Positions 5,984 through 21,499 of a DNA stretch of 64,000 nt are shown piece after piece. Origin of the DNA: Desulfonatronovibrio magnus (GTDB lineage: Bacteria > Desulfobacterota > Desulfovibrionia > Desulfovibrionales > Desulfonatronovibrionaceae); the NCBI RefSeq assembly GCF_000934755.1, contig NZ_KN882175.1, positions 148,456-212,455 of the forward strand, written 5' to 3'. Position 1 is the stretch's first letter; each line of letters opens with the position of its first letter. A program made the position numbers and the translations under genes. The notes under the pieces are model-generated. The model was given only the letters and a program-made list of their open reading frames with translations, made no database searches and was not told where the DNA came from.

Positions 5984-8200
5984 ATGCAAGAAAAATTAGA
6001 TAAACAAGACAGCACTGAGCCGGAAAGCATAGTTGACAAAGATGATTCCGTAAAAAAAGCAGCCCAGGACCTGGTGGTAATGACCGAGGCCGGGGCAAGA
6101 AACCCCCGAAGTGTTGTAGCCAGATATATAATTGTTGCTATCTGTCTGGCCTGGTCCGGTTTCCAGCTTATGATCGCATTCGACCCTATCAATTCCCAGA
6201 TTGCCCGTGCCTGGCATCTGGCATTTGCCATGACTCTGGCCTTTCTGGCATTTCCTGCCTACAAACAGGAATCCAAGCCAATATGGGTTAACTGGACCCA
6301 CAAAGTAATCCCCATTCTTTCCCGTCGGACCATAAGAAAGTACATTCCCGTCTATGACTGGATATTCGCAATTCTTGGTGCCGCCTCAGCCCTATATATA
6401 TGGTGGGACTATGAAAACCTGATTTATCGTCAGGGAATGCCCAACCAGACTGACATTATTATGGGGGTCTTGCTTATTATTCTTCTTCTGGAAGCAGCCA
6501 GGAGGACCCTGGGGCCGGCTTTGACCATTCTGGCCGCTCTTTTTCTGGCCTATAACTTTGTCGGACCATATCTGCCTGCTATGCTCAGACATCGCGGACT
6601 GCCTCTGGACTTCATTATCAGCGACATGTATCTGACCACAACAGGTATATTTGGAGTACCTCTTGGTGTTTCCACCAGTTTTGTATTTTTGTTCGTACTT
6701 TTCGGCTCTCTACTTGATAAGGCCGGTGGAGGAAAATATTTCATTGATGTGGCCTTTTCCGCCCTTGGCACTTACCGCGGGGGGCCTGCCAAGGCTGCGG
6801 TCATGGCTTCGGGACTTACCGGCATTGTTTCCGGCTCCTCCATTGCCAATACAGTTACTACCGGCACATTCACCATCCCTTTGATGAAAAAAGTAGGGTT
6901 TCCCGCTCACAAGGCAGGGGCTGTGGAAGTGGCATCATCTGTTAATGGGCAGCTAATGCCGCCCATCATGGGTGCAGCAGCATTCATCATGGCTGAAATT
7001 ATCGGCATACCCTACTTAGACGTTGTCAGGGCAGCCCTTTTTCCTGCTCTGATTTCTTATCTGGCGCTTTTGTATGTTGTGCATATTGAAGCATTAAAAA
7101 TGGGTGTCAAGGCCATTCCTCGCCTTGACCTCCCGAAATTCTGGAAGACCACCCTGAGAGGTTGTCACTTTCTAATACCCCTTGCCATTCTGATAATCTA
7201 CCTCGTGGTCCTCAGACGATCCCCTGTTGCTTCTGCTCTTTTTGCAGTGCAGAGCCTGATGATCATAATGATTATCCAGCGCCCAATGATCGCTTTTATT
7301 TCTCTGGGGTATCACCGCAGACTCGGGACCCTGGATCCCAACCTCAATCTCAAGCGCTTTATTCTTCATGCCTTTTTTGAAGGTCTCAAAGATCTCTGGG
7401 AAGGCTTGATTGCTGGAGCCAGAAATATGATTTCCGTAGGAATAGCTACTGCTACTGCGGGAATAATTGTTGGTGTAGTAACTATTACGGGTCTGGTTAG
7501 CAGGTTTGTCAATATCATTGATATTGTTTCCATGGGTAATGTTACACTGATGCTGGTTTTTACAGCCATGACCAGCCTCATCCTGGGCATGGGCATGCCC
7601 ACTACAGCCAACTACATTATCATGGCCACGCTGACGGCCCCGGTCATCCTCACTCTCGGTGCTGACGCCGGACTGATACTCCCAATTATCGCCATCCATC
7701 TATTTGTTTTTTATTTTGGAATTATGGCAGATGTTACTCCTCCAGTTGGCCTGGCCTCTTACGCTGGAGCTGCAATTTCCAGATCTGATCCAATAAAAAC
7801 TGGTGTTCAGGCTTTTTATTACAGCCTGAGAATAATGATTCTTCCCTTTATCTTTTTGTTTAACACGGAACTGCTCATGATAAGCGGGGTAACAGCAGAC
7901 GGGCATGCCATCTGGATAGATAACTATCTCCACATCAGCTGGATTTTCTTTTCAGGGCTCATAGCCATGTTTGCTTTTGCTTCTGCGCTGCAGGGCTTTC
8001 TTGTGACCAAATGTTCATGGTTTACACGCCTCATTTTATTGGTTAGTTGTTTGACCGTTTTCAGGCCAGGTATATTAGAGTCATATGTTTTTATGGGGCG
8101 AATAGGTTTACAGATAATCGGTGTGGCAGTCTTTTTCTCGATATTCTTTATTCAGAAATATAATTATAATAGAAGAAAGCATCTATTACAGAAAAGTTAG
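5984..8200 (+). CDS. TRAP transporter fused permease (4TM-12TM, DctQM type)
   Basis: Inner-membrane permease that carries the small (DctQ-like, about residues 45-190) and large (DctM-like, about 200-640) subunits in one chain, as is usual for TAXI systems. Key stretches: GGGKYFIDVAFSALGTYRGGPAKAAV, SGLTGIVSGSSIANTVTTG and the repeat-like GMGMPTTANYIIMATLTAP. The tail of about 100 residues adds further hydrophobic spans. The cytoplasmic N-terminus (about 45 residues) is charged and polar. It works with the TAXI receptor upstream and ends 17 bp before uspA. Transport is expected to be driven by a Na+ or H+ gradient, from family knowledge. Confidence 0.93.
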   Translation: MQEKLDKQDSTEPESIVDKDDSVKKAAQDLVVMTEAGARNPRSVVARYIIVAICLAWSGFQLMIAFDPINSQIARAWHLAFAMTLAFLAFPAYKQESKPIWVNWTHKVIPILSRRTIRKYIPVYDWIFAILGAASALYIWWDYENLIYRQGMPNQTDIIMGVLLIILLLEAARRTLGPALTILAALFLAYNFVGPYLPAMLRHRGLPLDFIISDMYLTTTGIFGVPLGVSTSFVFLFVLFGSLLDKAGGGKYFIDVAFSALGTYRGGPAKAAVMASGLTGIVSGSSIANTVTTGTFTIPLMKKVGFPAHKAGAVEVASSVNGQLMPPIMGAAAFIMAEIIGIPYLDVVRAALFPALISYLALLYVVHIEALKMGVKAIPRLDLPKFWKTTLRGCHFLIPLAILIIYLVVLRRSPVASALFAVQSLMIIMIIQRPMIAFISLGYHRRLGTLDPNLNLKRFILHAFFEGLKDLWEGLIAGARNMISVGIATATAGIIVGVVTITGLVSRFVNIIDIVSMGNVTLMLVFTAMTSLILGMGMPTTANYIIMATLTAPVILTLGADAGLILPIIAIHLFVFYFGIMADVTPPVGLASYAGAAISRSDPIKTGVQAFYYSLRIMILPFIFLFNTELLMISGVTADGHAIWIDNYLHISWIFFSGLIAMFAFASALQGFLVTKCSWFTRLILLVSCLTVFRPGILESYVFMGRIGLQIIGVAVFFSIFFIQKYNYNRRKHLLQKS

Positions 8201-8217
8201 AACCGGAGGCAAACTAA

Positions 8218-8691
8218 ATGTTTAAACACATCCTGATTCCCATTGACCTGCAAGAGGAAGATGAACGTCCGCGTACCCTGGCCCTTCACAAGGCTATTGA
8301 GCTTTGCCGGGTTTATGATGCCCAGCTGCATGTGCTCACAGTTGTACCTGATGTAGGCATGCCCATCGTAGGTTATTACTTTCCAACAGAAACAGAAGAT
8401 AAAATTGTTCAAGAATCGGAACGTTTTCTTCATGAACTTATCAATCTGCACATCCCTGATGACATTGAGGTTCAACACCTGGTTGCCCAGGGAACAGTTT
8501 ACAAACGCATTCTTAAAATGGCGGACAAAGTAAATGCAGACTTGATCATCATGCCCGCCCAGCAAATGAAACTGCAGGATTACCTCATAGGCTCCAACGC
8601 TTCAAGGGTAGTTCGCTATTCCAAATGCTCAGTACTTGTGGTAAGATCAGACTTTGATGATAGTTTTGTATGCATAAGTTGCGAAAAGTAA
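8218..8691 (+). CDS. UspA-family universal stress protein
   Basis: Small cytoplasmic protein of 157 aa with the Usp fold: FKHILIPIDL at the start, a central beta strand QLHVLTVVPD and the C-terminal SNASRVVRYSKCSVLVVR. The usual ATP motif (G-x2-G-x9-G-S/T) is only partly kept: IGSNA is present but the first glycines are replaced by PAQQMKLQ, so nucleotide binding is uncertain. RBS GGAGG precedes the ATG. It is 17 bp behind the TRAP permease; Usp genes often ride with TRAP operons, sometimes as regulatory partners, so a link with the transporter is likely. Confidence 0.88.
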   Translation: MFKHILIPIDLQEEDERPRTLALHKAIELCRVYDAQLHVLTVVPDVGMPIVGYYFPTETEDKIVQESERFLHELINLHIPDDIEVQHLVAQGTVYKRILKMADKVNADLIIMPAQQMKLQDYLIGSNASRVVRYSKCSVLVVRSDFDDSFVCISCEK

Positions 8692-9284: not shown

Positions 9285-9950
9285 TTAATTTATATTTCCA
9301 GTAGATATATTTGGTGTAAAGTGATGCAAGGTTATGTCTGCACCTGAAAAACCTGCTGGATTTAAAGCCCTTAAATCATAGGGAAGCATGTAATCTGCTG
9401 CAGCCAGTGTCAGGCCATCTGCTGTCCTTAATACCTTGGTATGGACATAGACCTGGTTATACACCACTGAATAAGTACCTACAAGAATAGCATTGGCCTT
9501 ATTGTCCCTGGCGAGCTCTGTCAGTTTTCTGGATAAGGCAAACTCCCCTTCTTTTTCCCTGACGAGAAGGCTCTCAGTTCTCAAGCGCATATCTACAACC
9601 TCATAGCCGCATTGAGTCAGTCGTGTACCTATCTGGTGTGGAATAATTCTTCCCAGAGTGCTCGTTTCTGAGAGATTATCTAAGTTGACAAATGAAGTAA
9701 GCAGAAATCTGGTGTCCTCAGGCACCCTCCCAGCCATTATGCTTATGAGACTCGTGCCCGCTGCATAGTTAGGGGTAATTATTTCAGCCTGGCGGGACGG
9801 AATATTTTGCCCTCTGTCCGGAACCATTCCGGCAATGGAAGAGCAGCCAGCTATGGTTAGAACCAAAATGAGCACAGCGAAATAACTCATTCCCAACGAA
9901 CACCTGCCTGCCAAATTTTTTTTTGCAGGCTTTGACAGTGACTTGTCCAT
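9285..9950 (-). CDS. FlgO-domain outer-membrane lipoprotein
   Basis: Predicted envelope lipoprotein of 221 aa. An N-terminal signal segment (about residues 20-36) ends in the lipobox LTIAGC, giving lipidated Cys36. The body matches the FlgO-type domain: FVNLDNLSETSTLGRIIPHQ, GYEVVDMRLR, SLLVREKEGEFALSR and ANAILVGTYSVVYNQVYVHTK. In Vibrio FlgO is an outer-membrane protein needed for flagellar assembly or stability; the job here is inferred. A second protein with the same core is encoded at 11883-12713, so the window has a paralogous pair. Start ATG has GGAGG about nine bases upstream. Confidence 0.8.
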   Translation of the reverse strand: MDKSLSKPAKKNLAGRCSLGMSYFAVLILVLTIAGCSSIAGMVPDRGQNIPSRQAEIITPNYAAGTSLISIMAGRVPEDTRFLLTSFVNLDNLSETSTLGRIIPHQIGTRLTQCGYEVVDMRLRTESLLVREKEGEFALSRKLTELARDNKANAILVGTYSVVYNQVYVHTKVLRTADGLTLAAADYMLPYDLRALNPAGFSGADITLHHFTPNISTGNIN

Positions 9951-11882: not shown

Positions 11883-12713
11883 ATGAAAAAATTTTGTTTT
11901 TCGTTATTTTTTGTTCTGATTTTCTACGCAGGACAAGCTCCGGTTTATGCCTGGTCACCGGTTGCCCACCATGGCTTTACGAGAGTGGAGGGTTTTCCTG
12001 CGATAGCATATCAGGCAGCTGATGCTCTCGAATACAACCTGAGTGCAGATATAAGCAGAACTTTGCCCATACTGTTTTCAAGTTTTGTGAATTTAAATGA
12101 CTTTAACTCAACTTCCACGCTGGGAAGAATTTTAGGTGAGCACATTGGTTCAAGGTTTTCCCAGCACGGTTATAATGTAATAGAACTGAGACTCAGAAAG
12201 AACTCACTTCATATTAGTGAAAAAACAGGTGAGTTTGCCATGTCAAGAAACATGAATCTTATCAGAGATTCCTGGAACGCACAGGCAGTTATATCCGGAT
12301 ATTACCACATAGTACATGACAGAGCTATTGTTTCAGTCAGGCTGGTTAGCACTATTGATAATTCCATACTGTCTTCACACGACTTTTCCTTTAAGCTTAA
12401 CAGATATTTAATGGACATGGTTGAGACTGAGACACTGGTCGCAACTGTAGATAAGAAAGAAGAGGAAGCCAGGGTTCCTCCAGGCCCCATATCAACAGGA
12501 AGAATTGAACTTAGTATTTCCAGAAGTACTGATGCCAAAATCATCCAGACCAGACTTGCAGAACTGGATCTTTATCTGGACAGAATAGACGGCATTTGGG
12601 GAAGAAACTCCAAAATAGCCCTGGAAAGATTCAAGTCAAGACATCAGCTTGCCAGGCCTGACAGGTGGGACATGCCTACTCAGCTTAAACTATTTCAGGG
12701 AACCGGGCAATAA
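11883..12713 (+). CDS. Exported FlgO-domain protein with C-terminal peptidoglycan-binding-like segment
   Basis: 276 aa with a Sec-type signal peptide and no lipobox. Residues of about 60-180 repeat the FlgO-type core seen at 9285-9950: SSFVNLNDFNSTSTLGRILGEH, GYNVIELRLRKNSLHISEKTGEFAMSR and AQAVISGYYHIVHDRAIVSVRLV. The last 60 residues (IQTRLAELDLYLDRIDGIWG, then NSKIALERFKSRH) look like a PG_binding_1 domain, which would tie the protein to the cell wall. RBS AAGGAGAGG is well placed. Middle gene of a likely three-gene envelope operon. Confidence 0.8.
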   Translation: MKKFCFSLFFVLIFYAGQAPVYAWSPVAHHGFTRVEGFPAIAYQAADALEYNLSADISRTLPILFSSFVNLNDFNSTSTLGRILGEHIGSRFSQHGYNVIELRLRKNSLHISEKTGEFAMSRNMNLIRDSWNAQAVISGYYHIVHDRAIVSVRLVSTIDNSILSSHDFSFKLNRYLMDMVETETLVATVDKKEEEARVPPGPISTGRIELSISRSTDAKIIQTRLAELDLYLDRIDGIWGRNSKIALERFKSRHQLARPDRWDMPTQLKLFQGTGQ

Positions 12714-13367: not shown

Positions 13368-13417
13368 TGCTTTATTGACTTTGCGAAAGCAGATAATCAC
13401 AAAGCCAGGAGGTGTAC

Positions 13418-13849
13418 ATGTCGCAGAAAAACATTTTATTTCTTTGCACCGGTAATTCATGCAGGAGTCAGATGGCTGAAGCCTGGACCAACCATTTACA
13501 TCCTGAAAAATATAAAGCATATTCAGCCGGAGTCATGAAAACCAGGGTTGACCCCAAAGCAATCAAGGTTATGGCCCAGGCAGGTCTGGACTTATCAGGC
13601 CAATATTCCAAGCTTATAGACGAAATCCAGGATATCACCTTTGATTATATCATCACGCTATGCGGTCACGCCCAAGAAAACTGCCCTTTTTTTCCAGGAC
13701 CCGCCAAAGTTATTCACCAGGGTTTTGACGACCCACCTTCCCTGGCCTTGAAAGAACCTGACGAAAAAAGCGCCTTACAACATTACCTGAGAGTCAGGGA
13801 TGAAATCAGGCAGTTTGTCCAGAATCTACCTTCAGTTTTAGATCATTAA
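13418..13849 (+). CDS. arsC: Arsenate reductase / low-molecular-weight tyrosine phosphatase family
   Basis: 143-aa cytoplasmic enzyme of the thioredoxin-coupled ArsC type: N-terminal P-loop CTGNSCRSQMAEAW with the catalytic CX5R, then a GxDLSGQYSK segment and the CGHAQENCPFFPG pair of cysteines that act in the disulfide relay of this class. It is expected to reduce arsenate to arsenite. The ATG at 13418 was chosen over an upstream GTG because AGGAGG lies five bases before it. It stands alone: no arsenite pump or ArsR gene is visible here, and general phosphatase activity remains possible. Confidence 0.88.
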   Translation: MSQKNILFLCTGNSCRSQMAEAWTNHLHPEKYKAYSAGVMKTRVDPKAIKVMAQAGLDLSGQYSKLIDEIQDITFDYIITLCGHAQENCPFFPGPAKVIHQGFDDPPSLALKEPDEKSALQHYLRVRDEIRQFVQNLPSVLDH

Positions 13850-14243: not shown

Positions 14244-14870
14244 ATGGAAAAAAAACAGCGTAAATACAATCAAGCCATGAGTATCTCCCAAACTGCTGAT
14301 TTTTTAAGGAAAATGGCTGATGGTCTGGAGCAAGGTTTTCTGAACTTTGAAAGTGAAACCTTTCAATGGGATGATATCAGCAAAATCAAACTGACATTTA
14401 AAAATCATGAAAGCCTGGTTTTGGTCAAAACAAAACTCAAAGGAGAACCTGGTGCTGACATAGAGGTCGAATTGCGTGATTCCGATAAAAGCACTACTGA
14501 AGAATATCTGGATGAACTGGATGAACTGGGTGAGTTAGATGAAAATGATGAAAACAGCCTTCAAGTGGAAAATGCGGAACCGGAAATATCATATAAAAAA
14601 CTCAAAAAAAGGATGAAGAAATCGTTTAAAGCCATTCATGTTGATCTGAAAAACGGTAATATGCCACAGGATCAGGAGATGGAAAGATTCCTCGAAGATT
14701 GTACGTTAATGACGAATTATACCGGTTACGGAGATGAATATTATCCTGTTTTCAATGAGGCTGCAGAACAAATGCGCAAGGCCTGGCAGGCTAACTATTT
14801 AAATGATCTGACTACAGCCTTTCAGGACATGGTAAAAATCATGAAAGTATGTCACGATCGCTATAAATGA
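14244..14870 (+). CDS. GAK system XXXCH protein
   Basis: 208 aa. The N-terminal 75 residues have an amphi-Trp-like pattern (SISQTADFLRKMADGLEQGF, then an FQWDDISKIKLTF strand), the middle is a highly acidic linker (DELDELGELDENDEN), and the C-terminus is helical with a final MVKIMKVCHDRYK, the Cys-His end that gives the XXXCH family its name. TIGRFAMs/NCBIfam treat this family as a member of the 'GAK system'; I recall no established function. It is the first gene of the cluster 14244-20802, separated from the rest by repeat F1. Start ATG with AAGGAAA upstream. Confidence 0.8.
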   Translation: MEKKQRKYNQAMSISQTADFLRKMADGLEQGFLNFESETFQWDDISKIKLTFKNHESLVLVKTKLKGEPGADIEVELRDSDKSTTEEYLDELDELGELDENDENSLQVENAEPEISYKKLKKRMKKSFKAIHVDLKNGNMPQDQEMERFLEDCTLMTNYTGYGDEYYPVFNEAAEQMRKAWQANYLNDLTTAFQDMVKIMKVCHDRYK

Positions 14871-14871
14871 G

Positions 14872-15296
14872 CTGGCGCTTCTAAGTAACTACAATCGTTT
14901 TGTTAATAAAATCAGATATTTACAGTTTTCACATTTTGACGATTTTTGCTCATGATTGATGCACATTTGCCAGAAAAGTTCCGTCAAAGATGAGAGCTTT
15001 GCGCCTGGCACAGCTTCCTGCCCGGAGGCTTACAGCCCAGAGGGGGACTGTCCCTCGCTGTGTAAATTTTATCATTAAGGCAAATTTCTACCATGAACCT
15101 ATGCAACATCAATCTTTTTTATAGTACCTCGCGGGGACTGTCCCAATTTCCAAATATGGGACTGTTCTTCAAGGTGGAGGCGGCTTCCAGCCGCCTGGAA
15201 TTAAATAGCCTGCAGGATGCAGGCTCCACTTTAAAGACAGTTACTCACAAGTTCGGTCCCGGTCCGCCCGGGTGAGGAGCTTCTAAGCAACTACAA
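14872..15296 (+). repeat. Composite repeat F1 + REP, full copy
   Basis: Same module order as 10221-10612, with an extra CTTCCTGCCCGGAGGCTTAC insert near 15015 that it shares with the copy at 20990. The REP palindrome is at 15240-15291. It splits the XXXCH gene from the PHP-like gene and so may interrupt an older operon. Confidence 0.88.
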
Positions 15297-15365
15297 CAGT
15301 ATTGGAAATAAATACAGGTACTTATCCATTAAAAATATATTATCTCAACCAATCAGGAAAGACTT

Positions 15366-16562
15366 ATGCCTAAACAAGCTCAAACAATGTCACTAATAAA
15401 ATCTGAAGACAAGAACAAACTTTTTGACCCGGAAAAGGTCAGCAAAGAAATTACTGATGATGACCTTAAAGCTTTCCATGAAATAACCAATCTGGAAATA
15501 AGCTCCCAACAGGCAGACAGAATTACTACACCCTACGAGGTATTGCTAAGACAAAAGAAAGTTCTGGCAGTACACTGGCATCCAGAATATATACCCATGG
15601 ACCTCATTAGACAGCGCATCCAAAATACCTTTCCCAACAGGGATGAAGAACTGATTATCCCTACCCAGCATAATCAGATAATGTCTTATGATGGTGAGTA
15701 TTCCGGGGTGGAGGTAGATTGTTATTCCAGTGGCTTTAAGCGCAAGGTACAGCTGCTGCTGCATTTTAAAAGCAGTAAGCTGGAAAATGCTGATGTTCTT
15801 AAGTCTATGCTGGCGCACACCTTTGAATACAGATCAAGCCAGTTATTCGACCTAATGGACACATTGATTGAACCCAAGTGGGATGATTATCGCCAGCTCG
15901 CTGCCGAAGGAACCGGGGTAGGAGAAAATGTTATCAGATTTGCCATGATTCAGACTCATAAGCTGCGCACACTACTTGAGCAGCATGAGCACTCAATCAG
16001 TAGAGAGGTCTTAAAAAATAAAATCGTACGCAATTTTCTTGATGCACAAAGGCATCTATATCCTGAAAACTTTATTAACAGAGTACAGGTTTTTGTAAAA
16101 TCTGTAAAAAAGGTCGTTAAGGCCAACTTCAGCCTGACATACTTTTACCGTACATCTGAAATCATTGAGGAGGCGCGGGGAATTGGCGGCGGCATTATTG
16201 TTCCTCATCCGGAACAGTTCTGGCCTATCCTGCTATGTGATTATGATATAGACGGCTACGAAGTCTGGAACCCTCAGTCTCAGGAGTACACTGATTTTCT
16301 AATCAATGTCATTAATCGTCAAAATAAGTCCAGATCTGCGTCTACCAAAAAGCTTCTTCTTTTTATGGGTGATGACACACATATGTCTGAGAAAATCAAA
16401 GACAGCACCCAAATCGAGGCTTCAAAATTTTATCGTGACATAGGTGTCCAGCCTGCCTGGGACGATCTGTCCATCAGGAAATCCCTGATAGTTGGCAGCT
16501 TCAGCCGTAAAAAAATGATTGATGAATACAGAGAACGTCTTGAAGGACAACTATCACTTTAA
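15366..16562 (+). CDS. PHP-like metallohydrolase of the GAK-type cluster (putative)
   Basis: 398 aa, no signal peptide. Not an annotated family to me, but the residue pattern is that of the PHP superfamily of metal-dependent phosphoesterases: HWHPE at about 70-74 (H-x-H), GVEVDCY near 114, GGGIIVPHPEQFWP near 275 (His), DGYEVWNP near 295 (Glu), and FMGDDTH near 345 (D-x-H at the end of the barrel). The central 140-250 region is helical and charged. A phosphoesterase or similar hydrolase would be a logical antagonist of the kinase encoded two genes later. The function is inferred; sequence search and metal-site modelling are needed to fix the family. Confidence 0.7.
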   Translation: MPKQAQTMSLIKSEDKNKLFDPEKVSKEITDDDLKAFHEITNLEISSQQADRITTPYEVLLRQKKVLAVHWHPEYIPMDLIRQRIQNTFPNRDEELIIPTQHNQIMSYDGEYSGVEVDCYSSGFKRKVQLLLHFKSSKLENADVLKSMLAHTFEYRSSQLFDLMDTLIEPKWDDYRQLAAEGTGVGENVIRFAMIQTHKLRTLLEQHEHSISREVLKNKIVRNFLDAQRHLYPENFINRVQVFVKSVKKVVKANFSLTYFYRTSEIIEEARGIGGGIIVPHPEQFWPILLCDYDIDGYEVWNPQSQEYTDFLINVINRQNKSRSASTKKLLLFMGDDTHMSEKIKDSTQIEASKFYRDIGVQPAWDDLSIRKSLIVGSFSRKKMIDEYRERLEGQLSL

Positions 16563-16599
16563 ATCCCTTCAATTAAACAGACCAGTGTAAGGATTCACC

Positions 16600-16887
16600 A
16601 TGAACACAGATAAAAAATTTGCATTATCATCCATTCAGGACTCAGAAACAATTTGCAAATACCTGGACGAAGTAAAAGAAGGTTTTCAGAAAGGAAACAT
16701 ACAATTCTCATACCAGGGAAATAGCGTGAAGCTCACACCCCATGGACTGGTAAAATTTGAAATAAAGGCCAGGCATAAGGAAGGACAGGTCAAGCTTACC
16801 TTGCGTTTCCGCTGGGAAGAGAATGAAGAAAAAAGATTCATGCTTTCATCTGATGAGCAAACCAGGCTCATGTCTCAGGACGAATAA
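16600..16887 (+). CDS. Amphi-Trp domain protein
   Basis: 95 aa, a stand-alone domain: DSETICKYLDEVKEGFQKG helix, then amphipathic strands FSYQGNSVKLTPHG, VKFEIKARHKEG and KLTLRFRWEEN. The FRW(E)E end is typical for amphi-Trp proteins, and it resembles the N-terminal part of the XXXCH protein at 14244. Function unknown. The TAA stop is directly followed by the ATG of the PhoU-kinase gene, so the two are translationally coupled and likely made in equal amounts. AAGGA lies before the start. Confidence 0.8.
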   Translation: MNTDKKFALSSIQDSETICKYLDEVKEGFQKGNIQFSYQGNSVKLTPHGLVKFEIKARHKEGQVKLTLRFRWEENEEKRFMLSSDEQTRLMSQDE

Positions 16888-18534
16888 ATGAAGTACTTTA
16901 AAGAATTAGAAGACAAAATTCACTTTATGGTCCTTGAGGTTACCAGACAGCTCGAGAATACCCAGAAAATAATCCACGACCCCAAATCAGAGCTGGTGGA
17001 CAAGGTAAAATCCCGTGATGACCATATTGACAATTACAAATCTATCATAGAAAATATGTGTTTTTCCAGAATTCATGGCCATGAAAATCTGCATAAACAG
17101 CGCATTGATTTTATAAGAGCTGTCAACATCATCAGCAACAATCTTGAAAGAATAAGTGACTACGCTGTTAATATCGTTGTGCAGCTCGGCTATCTTGAGT
17201 CTCAGGACATCTTGAAAGACTATAAATTCAAACCTTACTTTCAGCAACTGCTGGTTGCTCTGGAAAGCCTGACCAACGCCCTTTTCAAAAAAGACCTGAA
17301 CCTTGCTCTGAAAATCTGCAAGGCAGAGTTTATTATTGATAAGCTTTATAAAAACAACTTTGACACCATAATTCAAGAGTTAGACTACGACAAAAACAAG
17401 CATGACCTTGTAACCTGCCTTTTTATCTACCGCTACTTAGAAAGGATGGGCGATGCTCTGCTGAACATCGGAGAAGCCATAATTTTTTCCGTATTTGGAG
17501 AAAAACTCAAGATCCATCAGTACCAGGCCCTTAAGGAAAGTTTAGACTCCATAAATTATAATATCCACATTGACGAAGTTGATTTTGAATCCATCTGGGA
17601 ATCAAGATCAGGCTGCAGAATCGGAAAAATTATTGACCCCGGGATCAGAGAAGGCCGAGGTGTATTGTTCAAGGAAGGAAAGATTAACAAAATTGCAAGG
17701 GAAAAGCAGAATATCGAGACCTGGTCCAGCATTTTTCCCAGCCTGGTTCCCAAGATTTTCAGCTACAATCAAGTCAAGGACAATGCCTCAATGCTGCTGG
17801 AATTTCTGCAGGGTTGCTCTTTTCAGGAAACACTAACTTTACATGACCCTGAGATTCAGGACAATTCCTTTTTCCTGCTCAAAGAAACACTGTCTTTGAT
17901 CTGGGAAAAAACCATGCAGAATGAATCAGTAAACGCAAAGTTCATTGCCCAGCTTGTATCCAGAATTGATGATGTGCTCATGATTCATCCAGAGTTTGAC
18001 TTTTCTGAAGCAAGAATAGGTTCTCTCAAGACCCCTTCACTCAATACATTTATTGAAATGCTGACAGAAATCGAAAACAGCATCGAGGCTCCTTTTTCAG
18101 TTTTTATTCACGGAGATTTCAATGCAAATAATATCATCTACAACCAAAAAAATCAGCAAATATATTTTATAGACCTGCACAGATCCTGTCACAACGATTA
18201 TGTTCAAGACGTCTCTGTTTTTCTGGTATCCAATTTCCGGCAACCAAACTTCGAGCCGCAGTTCAGGTCCCTTAGTAATAAGCTCAATGATGATTTTTAT
18301 ACTTTTGCTGCTGAATTTGCCGCTGAAAACAATGATCAGCTCTTTGATACAAGACTGGCTCTCGGACTTATCCGATCATTTTTCACCTCTACCAGGTTTG
18401 AACTTAACCGCGAGTTCGCAGGCAGCATGTATCAGCGCGCCCTTTATCTTGCTGAAAAACTGATCGCACACCAGGGAAGCGCGTGGGAAGATTTTCACTT
18501 CCCCAAAGATGTTTTTAAATATCAAAATTTTTGA
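16888..18534 (+). CDS. PhoU-like domain fused to aminoglycoside/choline-kinase-like phosphotransferase
   Basis: 548 aa cytoplasmic protein. Residues of about 1-220 form a PhoU-like three-helix repeat pair, with the two (E/D)xxxD sites in NNLERISDYAVNI and YRYLERMGDALLNIGEA that bind metal in PhoU. Residues of about 235-540 are an APH-type kinase: a divergent nucleotide lobe (GRGVLFKEGKINKIAREKQN), MLLEFLQGCSF as hinge, catalytic loop HGDFNANNI and the IDLHRS metal site. Both catalytic Asp are present, so it should be active. It may phosphorylate a small molecule made or handled by the neighbouring ligase and CofD-like protein; this is inference from clustering. Confidence 0.82.
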   Translation: MKYFKELEDKIHFMVLEVTRQLENTQKIIHDPKSELVDKVKSRDDHIDNYKSIIENMCFSRIHGHENLHKQRIDFIRAVNIISNNLERISDYAVNIVVQLGYLESQDILKDYKFKPYFQQLLVALESLTNALFKKDLNLALKICKAEFIIDKLYKNNFDTIIQELDYDKNKHDLVTCLFIYRYLERMGDALLNIGEAIIFSVFGEKLKIHQYQALKESLDSINYNIHIDEVDFESIWESRSGCRIGKIIDPGIREGRGVLFKEGKINKIAREKQNIETWSSIFPSLVPKIFSYNQVKDNASMLLEFLQGCSFQETLTLHDPEIQDNSFFLLKETLSLIWEKTMQNESVNAKFIAQLVSRIDDVLMIHPEFDFSEARIGSLKTPSLNTFIEMLTEIENSIEAPFSVFIHGDFNANNIIYNQKNQQIYFIDLHRSCHNDYVQDVSVFLVSNFRQPNFEPQFRSLSNKLNDDFYTFAAEFAAENNDQLFDTRLALGLIRSFFTSTRFELNREFAGSMYQRALYLAEKLIAHQGSAWEDFHFPKDVFKYQNF

Positions 18535-18710
18535 GGCAAACTTTTCCCACAACCCGGCAACAATTATCCTTGACCGGTATTTGGGACAGTCTCGCAGACA
18601 AAATGACAATAACTTCTAATCAAACTGCTAAAGTGAGGCCCCAAGTGCCTGTCCCCTGATGCCCATTAAACGGTCCAAACTATTACAAACTCATAATGAG
18701 GAAGTAAATT

Positions 18711-19592
18711 ATGCATAATCTCAAAATAGCTGTCATAGGTAATCCAGGTAGCTGGTCGACTGAGGTGCTGGCTGATGCTCTGGAAAAGAAAACAGGCTAT
18801 AAATGTGTTGTGGAAATGTCACAGGTAACCATGGACTTCGACAGCAGATCACTTTTTCAAGGTGAGGTTGATCTGGCCTCATTGGATGCTCTGGTTATTA
18901 AAAAAATAGGACCTGTTTACTCCCCTGACATGTTTAACAGGCTGGAAATCCTGCGCTTTTTCTGTAAAATCGGTATCCCTGTCTACTCCCGCCCAGAGAG
19001 AATTATGGCTGCCATTAACAGACTCAGTTGTACTGTTACTCTGCAAAAAGGGGATATTCCCATGCCTCCAACCGTAATTACAGAGAATATCAACCAGGCA
19101 GTCAAGGCTGTTAAAAAATTTGGAAAAGCTGTATTCAAGCCCTTATATTCCAGCAAAGCCCGGGGGATGCTTGTTGTGGAAGACCATGATAACTGCCGTT
19201 CTGAAATTGAAAACTTTCAAGCCTCGGGCAATACCACCATGTATATCCAGAAAATGATAGATATACCTGGCAAAGACCTCGGAGTTGCATTTCTTGGAGG
19301 AAAATACCTTGGCACGTATGCAAGACGACAAGGCGAATCCTGGAACACCTGTACTTCCAGCGGAGGAAAATACGAACCTTATGAACCATCTCAGGAAATA
19401 ATTGAGCTTGCTCAAAAGGCTCAGTCACTTTTTGATCTGGATTTCACCTGTGTGGATGTTGTGGAGACTGATCAGGGCCCGATGGTTTTTGAGGTTTCGG
19501 CATTTGGAGGTTTCAGAGGGCTGATTAATGCCTGCAGCATTGACGCTGCAGCCCTATATAGTGAATATGTCATTAACGACTTAAGCTCATAG
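18711..19592 (+). CDS. GAK system ATP-grasp ligase
   Basis: 293 aa, ATP-grasp enzyme of the RimK/glutamate-ligase branch. Seen: GKAVFKPLYSSKARGMLVVED (ATP-binding loop and lysine, about 142-162), MYIQKMIDIPGKDLGVAFLGG (hinge and Glu/Asp strand) and DVVETDQGPMVFEVSAFGGF, where the metal-binding ExN is EVS. These enzymes join a carboxylate to an amine using ATP. TIGRFAMs has a model for this family under the name GAK system. It follows the PhoU-kinase gene after 176 bp, which include a short GTGCCTGTCCCC remnant of F3 type. Start ATG with GAGGAAG upstream. Confidence 0.88.
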   Translation: MHNLKIAVIGNPGSWSTEVLADALEKKTGYKCVVEMSQVTMDFDSRSLFQGEVDLASLDALVIKKIGPVYSPDMFNRLEILRFFCKIGIPVYSRPERIMAAINRLSCTVTLQKGDIPMPPTVITENINQAVKAVKKFGKAVFKPLYSSKARGMLVVEDHDNCRSEIENFQASGNTTMYIQKMIDIPGKDLGVAFLGGKYLGTYARRQGESWNTCTSSGGKYEPYEPSQEIIELAQKAQSLFDLDFTCVDVVETDQGPMVFEVSAFGGFRGLINACSIDAAALYSEYVINDLSS

Positions 19593-19608
19593 TCTGCTGG
19601 GCAAGGTT

Positions 19609-20802
19609 ATGCTGAAAATCAGACTTTCCCGGGCTGTATCAATTCCTGACAAGCTGAAGATGGCCAGGTACCGCAAGGTACCCGAGCTGGGACCAAAGAT
19701 TCTTTTCTTCAGCGGCGGAACTGCTCTTAATCCCCTTAGCAGGGCACTTGTAGAATATACCCACAATTCCACCCATATAGTAACTCCCTTTGATTCAGGG
19801 GGCAGTTCTGCCAAGCTTCGCAAGGCTTTCAAAATGCTGGCAGTGGGTGACATGCGCAGTCGTCTTATGGCTTTGGCCGATCAGAGTGTGAAGGGAAATC
19901 CTGAGATCTTCAGCCTGTTTGCCTACCGACTGCCCCAGGATAAAGATGATTACGAACTGAAGAATATATTAAATCTCATGGCTGCAGGGCGACACAAGCT
20001 TGTTAATAACATACCTGACCCTTTGCGCAGAATCATCCGCAATCACCTTGCTCTGTTTATTGAAAAAATGCCGGAAAATTTTGACCTTAAAGGTGCAAGT
20101 ATTGGCAATCTGATTCTGGCATCAGGTTACTTTGCCAACGATAGACATATCGATCCCGTCATTTTTATTTTTTCCAAGCTTGCCGAGGTCAGAGGAACTG
20201 TGCGTCCTGTCATGAACAGTATGCTTCACCTGATCTCTCTTCTGGATGATGGATCAACTGTCAGAGGGCAGCATATGCTCACAGGCAAAGAAAATGCTCC
20301 CATAAAATCAAGAGTAAAGGAAGTTTATCTCAGCAAAAACTTAGACAATCCTGCTCCTTTCAATCCAGCCATCCGCAATAAGATTAAAAAGCTTATACTT
20401 GACGCTGAGCTTATCTGCTATCCCATGGGCAGCTTTTATTCCAGCATCATTGCCAATATTCTGCCGAGAGGAGTCGGCGAAGCAATTGCAGAAAATCTTT
20501 GCCCTAAAATATATATTCCCAATACTGCCCACGATCCGGAACAATTTGGCACATCACTGCATCAGCGTGTTGAAATACTGCTGCAATATCTCAGGCAAAG
20601 CTCCAACAATCTCTATCCTGACTCAAAACTACTGGATATGGTTCTCATCGACCGAAACCATTCATTATACCAGGGCGGAATTGATCCTGAATATATTAAA
20701 AGACTTGGAGTGGATGTTCTTGAAACCAACCTTTGCATAGATCACAAAAATCCTCGATTGGACAACCAGCTTTTGATGGAATGTCTTCTCTCCATGGTAT
20801 AA
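19609..20802 (+). CDS. GAK system CofD-like protein
   Basis: 397 aa with the CofD/YvcK fold: FFSGGTALNPLSRALVEY (nucleotide-side GGT loop), THIVTPFDSGGSSAKLRKAF (DxGGS motif), DLKGASIGNLILASGYF and PMGSFYSSIIANILPRGV. True CofD transfers phospholactyl from a nucleotide diphosphate to F420 precursor, while YvcK-type members bind UDP-sugars. NCBIfam keeps this as a separate GAK system family, so the ligand is open. It begins 16 bp after the ATP-grasp gene. It is the last gene of the cluster, followed by a repeat block. Confidence 0.88.
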   Translation: MLKIRLSRAVSIPDKLKMARYRKVPELGPKILFFSGGTALNPLSRALVEYTHNSTHIVTPFDSGGSSAKLRKAFKMLAVGDMRSRLMALADQSVKGNPEIFSLFAYRLPQDKDDYELKNILNLMAAGRHKLVNNIPDPLRRIIRNHLALFIEKMPENFDLKGASIGNLILASGYFANDRHIDPVIFIFSKLAEVRGTVRPVMNSMLHLISLLDDGSTVRGQHMLTGKENAPIKSRVKEVYLSKNLDNPAPFNPAIRNKIKKLILDAELICYPMGSFYSSIIANILPRGVGEAIAENLCPKIYIPNTAHDPEQFGTSLHQRVEILLQYLRQSSNNLYPDSKLLDMVLIDRNHSLYQGGIDPEYIKRLGVDVLETNLCIDHKNPRLDNQLLMECLLSMV

Positions 20803-20856
20803 ATTCCCATAACCACCAAACCAAAGCACCGAGATATCCTGACGGGCTTCGCTGCC

Positions 20857-21424
20857 TTCTAAGTAACTGGAGTCGTTTTGCCAATAAAATCAGACGTTTA
20901 CAATTTTCATATTTTGACGATTTTTGCTTTGATTAATGCATATTTGCCTGAAAAGTTCCGTCAAAGATGGGAGCTTTGCGTCTGGCACAGCTTCCTGCCC
21001 GGAGGCTTACAGCCCGGAGGGGGACTGTCCCTCGCTGTGTAAATTTTTCCATTGAAGCAAATTACTTCCAGGAACCAATGCAGCATCAATCTTTTTTATA
21101 GTACCTCGCGGGGACTGTCCCAGTTTTCAGAAAAGTGACAGACTCGTAAAGTTACTCACACGTTCGGTCCCGGGCGGCCCAGGTGAGGAGCTTCTAAGTA
21201 ACTACAATCGTATGTGCAATAAAATCAGGTTATTATGGTTTTACCATACAGATTGCTTCGGTCGCTTAGACTCCCTCGTGGGTGACAGGTTTTCAGCAAC
21301 TAAATCCATGACAGCTCAGGTGTCATTGCGAGCGAGTCTTCGAGCGCGGCAATCCCAAACGCGTTAAGGCTATTTCAAGTTACTCACAGGCTCGGTCCCA
21401 AGCCGCCCGGGTGAGGAGCTTCTT
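20857..21424 (+). repeat. Composite repeat F1 + REP + F5 + REP
   Basis: F1 core 20860-21130, REP 21149-21203, F5 21236-21372 (TTTACCATACAGATTGCTT, GGTGACAGGTTTTCAG and GTCATTGCGAGCGAGTCTTC), and a second REP end at 21375-21424. This is the clearest example of the nested order REP-F5-REP. It lies between the GAK-type cluster and the flagellar operon, where two opposite transcripts meet. Confidence 0.88.
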
Positions 21425-21499
21425 TAAAATTGTACCCATTGAATATCCGAAAGCCGGGGCTATCTTTAAACAGCCGCAGACAAGATATCTTAACTCCCC

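Follow-up and report, generated by a model that had tools for sequence, protein, structure and literature searches.

The 64,000-nucleotide stretch of Desulfonatronovibrio magnus contig NZ_KN882175.1 analysed here (the window) harbors a GAK cluster, in which six open reading frames (ORFs) on the plus strand encode an XXXCH protein, a PHP-like phosphoesterase, an amphi-Trp protein, a PhoU domain fused to an APH-type kinase (the PhoU-kinase), an ATP-grasp ligase and a CofD-like protein (Table 1). Judged by record titles, GAK occurs in about eight phyla; its carriers include sulfate reducers and many marine bacteria. An earlier sequence-only reading had placed, named and oriented these six genes, and the ORFs, the hidden Markov model (HMM) matches and a structure model of the PHP-like protein bear it out; its statement that several spacings measure 0-37 bp is true of three of the five, the intervals being, in order, 495, 37, 0, 176 and 16 bp. 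An Rfam search of the region matched no RNA family.

Table 1. Features in and around the GAK cluster, with positions in the window
Feature	Position	Strand	Support
Arsenate-reductase-like low-molecular-weight phosphatase gene	13412..13849	+	TIGR02691 129.6 bits, under cut-off 174.3
XXXCH protein	14244..14870	+	TIGR04358 88.7 bits; structure model
Dispersed repeat between XXXCH and PHP genes	14878..15325		repeat copies in genome
PHP-like phosphoesterase	15366..16562	+	predicted structure; conserved motif residues
Amphi-Trp protein	16600..16887	+	TIGR04354 59.6 bits
PhoU domain fused to APH-type kinase	16888..18534	+	Pfam PhoU 7e-23, APH 4e-8
GAK ATP-grasp ligase, RimK/LysX-like	18711..19592	+	TIGR04356 459.6 bits, cut-off 300
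GAK CofD-like protein, nearest YvcK/GlmR	19609..20802	+	TIGR04357 548.4 bits, cut-off 340
Second copy of dispersed repeat, 3' of cluster	20856..21236		repeat comparison

Members of the GAK system

NCBIfam and Pfam models match five of the six proteins, the exception being the PHP-like protein, for which no model of either library was found. The ATP-grasp, CofD-like, XXXCH and amphi-Trp proteins all score above their NCBIfam cut-offs, so that four members of the NCBIfam GAK system (TIGR04354 to TIGR04358) lie in the window, and the remaining one, the HprK-related kinase B (TIGR04355), likewise exceeds its cut-off but is encoded on another contig of this genome. The NCBIfam models differ from the system described here in that they name neither the PHP-like and PhoU-kinase members nor any link to phosphate.

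Gene co-occurrence, proposed as a check in the sequence-only reading, was scored across the phylum: of 198 genomes, 16 carry the GAK ligase (15 over the cut-off and one truncated). The HprK-related kinase B exceeds its cut-off in 15 genomes, all of them within these 16, and the PHP-like gene is present in 13 of the 16, on the contig of the ligase; neither was found in the other 182 (Fisher P 1e-21 and 7e-18, respectively, with the caveat that related genomes are not independent). In the three GAK genomes without a PHP-like gene, the contig that bears the ligase is shorter than 8 kb. The CofD-like gene is more loosely associated, being found without the ligase in six genomes. Across 47 well-flanked loci, that is, the window plus 46 from named genomes, the PhoU-kinase is encoded in 46, the HprK-related kinase in 41, the CofD-like protein in 32 and the PHP-like protein in 29. 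Since the PhoU-kinase is present in 46 of 47 loci and the PHP-like gene is confined to GAK genomes, both are members of the system and not chance neighbours, which the sequence-only reading had considered as a possibility.

Phosphate genes and other neighbours of GAK loci

The gene of the HprK-related kinase B, whose usual place in relatives is directly after the ligase gene, has been moved in this genome to another contig (G000:C18:18222-19274, 483.8 bits), where it is followed by one small gene and then by pstS-pstC-pstA-pstB. It also adjoins pst permease genes on a Desulfonatronospira contig (L033). The position of the gene beside pst in the genome of the window led us to look for phosphate genes in the vicinity of GAK. 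Genome G089 carries a complete phoR-phoB-pstSCAB-phoU set, phoH2, XXXCH and the other GAK genes, all inside 16 kb, and PhoH2 also adjoins XXXCH in G172 and in the G379 locus. Near GAK there are also a PhoB-like regulator, pstB and phoU (L043), pstS-C-A-B-phoU with an arsC-like gene (L068), phoU (L108) and a PiT transporter gene (L077, L082 and L085), and in G161 a CofD-like gene without ligase follows pstA-pstB-phoU. PstS-like matches in L048, L063 and L075 were left uncounted, since they might represent binding proteins of a generic kind.

Eighteen further regions, about 14 of them previously unseen, were fetched after the phosphate hypothesis had been formed, and Pst or PhoU genes were found in three. 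In G417 pstS-pstC-pstA precede the PHP-like, amphi-Trp, PhoU-kinase, ligase, hprK, cofD and amphi-Trp genes on one strand; in G268, likewise on one strand, pstB-phoU are followed by phosphatase, amphi-Trp, PhoU-kinase, ligase and hprK genes; and in G130 pstB-phoU and a phoR-like histidine kinase gene lie near GAK. Control loci around RimK paralogues, taken mostly from the same genomes, showed phosphate genes in 0 of 18. Because most of the GAK genomes checked have a single copy of PstB, about 0.5 adjacent loci would be expected over the whole set, and eight were seen; the rough Poisson P of about 1e-7, like that of 1e-4 for the follow-up set alone, is a base-rate estimate made partly after the fact, and not a matched permutation test. 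Across many lineages, GAK genes are thus repeatedly found next to genes for phosphate uptake and sensing. With the known Pst-PhoU systems GAK shares the PhoU domain and, in several genomes, pstSCAB, phoU, phoB, phoR and phoH as neighbours, whereas its kinases, ligase, GlmR-like protein and phosphoesterase are foreign to them. Neither the link to phosphate uptake nor the relocated seventh gene figured in the sequence-only reading, and the phosphate context is the informative result.

The arsenate-reductase-like phosphatase gene upstream of the cluster recurs upstream of GAK in L034, L035, L036 and L068, among them Desulfonatronospira and the pst-GAK locus L068, and possibly lies outside the GAK core. 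Farther upstream in the window (5984-8691) there are a TRAP-type fused permease and a UspA gene, a pair that in Desulfonatronospira (L036-L038) directly precedes GAK. The genes at 9285-9950 (minus strand) and 11883-12713 (plus strand) encode similar proteins and look like diverged copies; the former product has a lipoprotein-like N-terminus, and between the two genes lies another lipoprotein-like gene. Cation-transporting P-type ATPase genes are also found beside GAK genes, and MgtE after a lone CofD-like gene (L077, L085, L065 and L116), hinting at a magnesium connection besides phosphate. A second recurrent group that flanks GAK in several phyla (L063, L083, L108, L049 and L055) comprises a phosphatidylserine-decarboxylase-like gene, an Lgt-like gene and a gene for an 801-aa protein without Pfam match, to which some loci add an 814-aa glycosyltransferase with a PHP-like N-terminus. 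Away from phosphate genes, two loci in one genus of the same taxonomic order (L117 and L118, in G138 and G076) have a ligase-less CofD-like gene beside yidC-like, mnmE-like and exonuclease-like genes.

The 495-bp gap between the XXXCH and PHP genes is largely filled by a dispersed repeat with a unit of about 430 bp. Among 538 candidate places in the 4.8-Mb genome, about 40 scored as near-full copies of it, at 87-96% identity; a further partial copy lies at 21378-21464. A search for it in phages gave no match, and it looks like an element of the miniature inverted-repeat transposable element (MITE) type. It is an insertion and no functional part of the cluster. Because the XXXCH and PHP genes overlap in the related locus L032, it has probably split a formerly tight operon.

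Catalytic sites and candidate substrates

The predicted proteins form a conserved cassette in which the kinase and phosphoesterase sites are intact. The PhoU-kinase combines two Pfam PhoU repeats with an APH domain (its score against the full-length PhoU model TIGR02135, 92.3 bits, is below the cut-off of 130.25), a profile search matched it to PhoU structures and to APH(3') kinases, and its catalytic residues are invariant across 36 homologues. The HprK-related protein retains the His, P-loop and NDR residues, its likeness to HprK being limited to the P-loop region. In Firmicutes, HprK is found with YvcK/GlmR and Crh, and GAK likewise encodes an HprK-related kinase together with a YvcK-like protein; it differs in that no HPr or Crh was found in the GAK cluster and in the addition of the PhoU-kinase and the ligase.

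The AlphaFold2 model of the PHP-like protein (pLDDT 92.4) resembles PHP phosphoesterases at Z 15-17, including 3o0f, RNase AM and the nucleotide-bound 2yb1, and its metal-site motifs HxH, H, E, H, H and DxH, assigned by eye, are retained by 42 or all 43 of 43 homologues. The model thus points to a PHP-fold phosphoesterase, nearest to the RNase AM type. GAK loci of Pseudomonadota are without PHP and XXXCH and instead contain a histidine phosphatase, a metallophosphatase, often a SixA-Nudix fusion, and Nudix genes. PHP genes and histidine phosphatase/metallophosphatase genes never occur together in 81 loci (50 versus 17), an exclusion that carries little weight taken alone because one or two changes on the ligase tree account for the split; a genome of the Nitrospinota sample (G268) that also has the second phosphatase type represents a further swap. 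This replacement of one phosphatase by another suggests that GAK requires a step in which phosphate is removed.

When searched as a profile against solved structures, the ligase matches RimK/LysX/ArgX-type and peptide-modifying enzymes, with which it shares most of the ligase residues, including the conserved Lys, Arg, Asp and Glu. The superfamily relation is clear, yet the RimK-type E-x-N metal-binding motif is replaced by E261-V-S263 in 15 of 15 ligases; in RimK the Asn at this position binds metal. No acceptor tail was recognised either: a conserved acidic C-terminal tail is not present in the upstream amphi-Trp proteins, and many of the downstream ones have Glu-rich tails with no shared end, so that this candidate was rejected. 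ITPK and PPIP5K, which take part in phosphate control in eukaryotes, also have ATP-grasp folds. The ligase could on this ground be a kinase of the ITPK/PPIP5K type, making an inositol-pyrophosphate-like messenger that Nudix proteins and histidine phosphatases would degrade, and SixA-Nudix and histidine phosphatase genes do adjoin GAK in Pseudomonadota; as the profile matches only RimK/LysX/ArgX and related ligases and no inositol phosphate kinase structure, such a messenger is highly improbable.

The sequence-only reading had described the CofD-like protein as a nucleotide-linked transferase. A Pfam CofD domain is recognised in it (E 2.5e-40), but the only solved structures matched in the profile search are YvcK/UPF0052, CofD itself not being among them, and the protein is nearer to YvcK/GlmR than to CofD. 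The description therefore does not hold as it was given, although a transferase of that kind is possible. GlmR (YvcK) of Listeria has been reported to be a uridyltransferase dependent on D40, D41 and N198 (PMC10128056). The equivalent of D40 is invariant in the GAK protein, that of D41 is an invariant Ser63 and that of N198 is kept in 27 of 32 sequences, so that the full catalytic set is not present.

These partial likenesses bear on two alternatives. One is a close rival and nearly as likely as the reversible modification of proteins, with both held tentatively: GAK would, under phosphate control, build a small metabolite that is phosphorylated or nucleotide-activated. The APH-type kinase would phosphorylate it, the GlmR-like protein nucleotidylate or transfer it, the ligase add an amino acid, and phosphoesterases and Nudix proteins trim it, with amphi-Trp proteins as carriers or scaffolds. 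The APH fold, the uridyltransferase activity of GlmR together with the invariant D40 equivalent, and the phosphatase and Nudix genes of Pseudomonadota argue for this metabolite; the Ser at the second catalytic Asp, the action of several solved ligase relatives on proteins or peptides, and the finding that no transporter or polymerase gene is constant in the clusters compared argue against it. The other alternative, that GAK mainly regulates carbon or cell-envelope metabolism, in the manner of HprK and YvcK/GlmR in Firmicutes, and adjoins phosphate genes through co-regulation or chance, draws on the distant relationship of two members to HprK and YvcK/GlmR, on YvcK, which binds UDP-sugars and in Bacillus influences both carbon use and the cell wall (PMC5482804), and on the many loci with no phosphate genes nearby. 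It is improbable in view of the PhoU domain within a core gene, the same-strand pst genes directly ahead of GAK in unrelated genomes and the controls devoid of phosphate genes; moreover, R301 and Y265, the residues of B. subtilis YvcK for UDP-GlcNAc, are apparently unconserved in the alignment as read by eye.

In its structure model, the XXXCH protein consists of an N-terminal amphi-Trp domain (a sub-threshold HMM match), an acidic linker and a C-terminal four-helix domain. Cytochrome c' tops both the structure list (Z about 10, a value that for helical bundles is indecisive alone) and the sequence list (E 0.0024), and C203-H204 are in register with its heme Cys and His. In contrast to cytochrome c', the protein has the N-terminal amphi-Trp domain and is without the first heme cysteine of a CxxCH motif: the CH pair is kept in 21 of 21 sequences, whereas the residue at the place of the first Cys varies and is not predominantly Cys in any sequence. 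No signal peptide was seen by eye.

A candidate accessory arm of the Pst-PhoU system

The adjacency to phosphate genes and the PhoU domain make a role of GAK in phosphate homeostasis very probable. On balance, the module probably serves the Pst-PhoU phosphate system as an accessory arm and modifies a shared substrate, the likeliest candidates being the amphi-Trp and XXXCH proteins, which are small, non-catalytic and regular companions of GAK. That this substrate is a protein rather than a small molecule has somewhat less than an even chance. In the proposed mechanism, the PhoU domain would couple its kinase to phosphate status, the PhoU-kinase and the HprK-related kinase would add phosphate to the shared substrate, the RimK-type ligase would perhaps add an amino acid, and the PHP phosphoesterase, or in other lineages the histidine phosphatase and the metallophosphatase, would remove phosphate. 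On a bolder reading, less likely than not, GAK would be a previously unrecognised phosphate-sensing output: depending on the supply of phosphate, the amphi-Trp and the cytochrome c'-like XXXCH proteins would be reversibly modified by the PhoU-tethered and HprK-like kinases, the RimK-like ligase and the phosphoesterase. The making and removal of a phosphorylated group, as foreseen in the sequence-only reading, fits two kinases and a phosphoesterase as a candidate reaction; its attachment by the ligase to the XXXCH or amphi-Trp protein finds no backing as stated, since neither family carries the conserved C-terminal Glu that would mark a RimK-type substrate.

The missing Glu is one of several points that weigh against the modification of these proteins under phosphate control. 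APH-type kinases act mostly on small molecules, and the ligase has an invariant Ser in place of the usual metal-binding Asn. Most GAK loci have no phosphate gene inside about 10 kb, and Pho boxes show no clear enrichment ahead of GAK genes, perfect boxes being found in 2 of 66 GAK upstream regions versus 0 of 708 others, with the scan otherwise near background. Expression or biochemical data on GAK were not found in a literature search, and the phosphate-limitation fitness data of Desulfovibrio alaskensis G20, which is not established as a GAK carrier, contain no recognisable GAK gene.

No paper mentioning GAK was found in the literature search, and the system has so far consisted of names in an HMM library. 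The recurrent adjacency to phosphate genes is the first solid clue to its function, and this tie makes an orphan cluster directly testable. In addition, GAK has a PhoU domain and a kinase in one polypeptide, which bears on how PhoU relays the phosphate signal.

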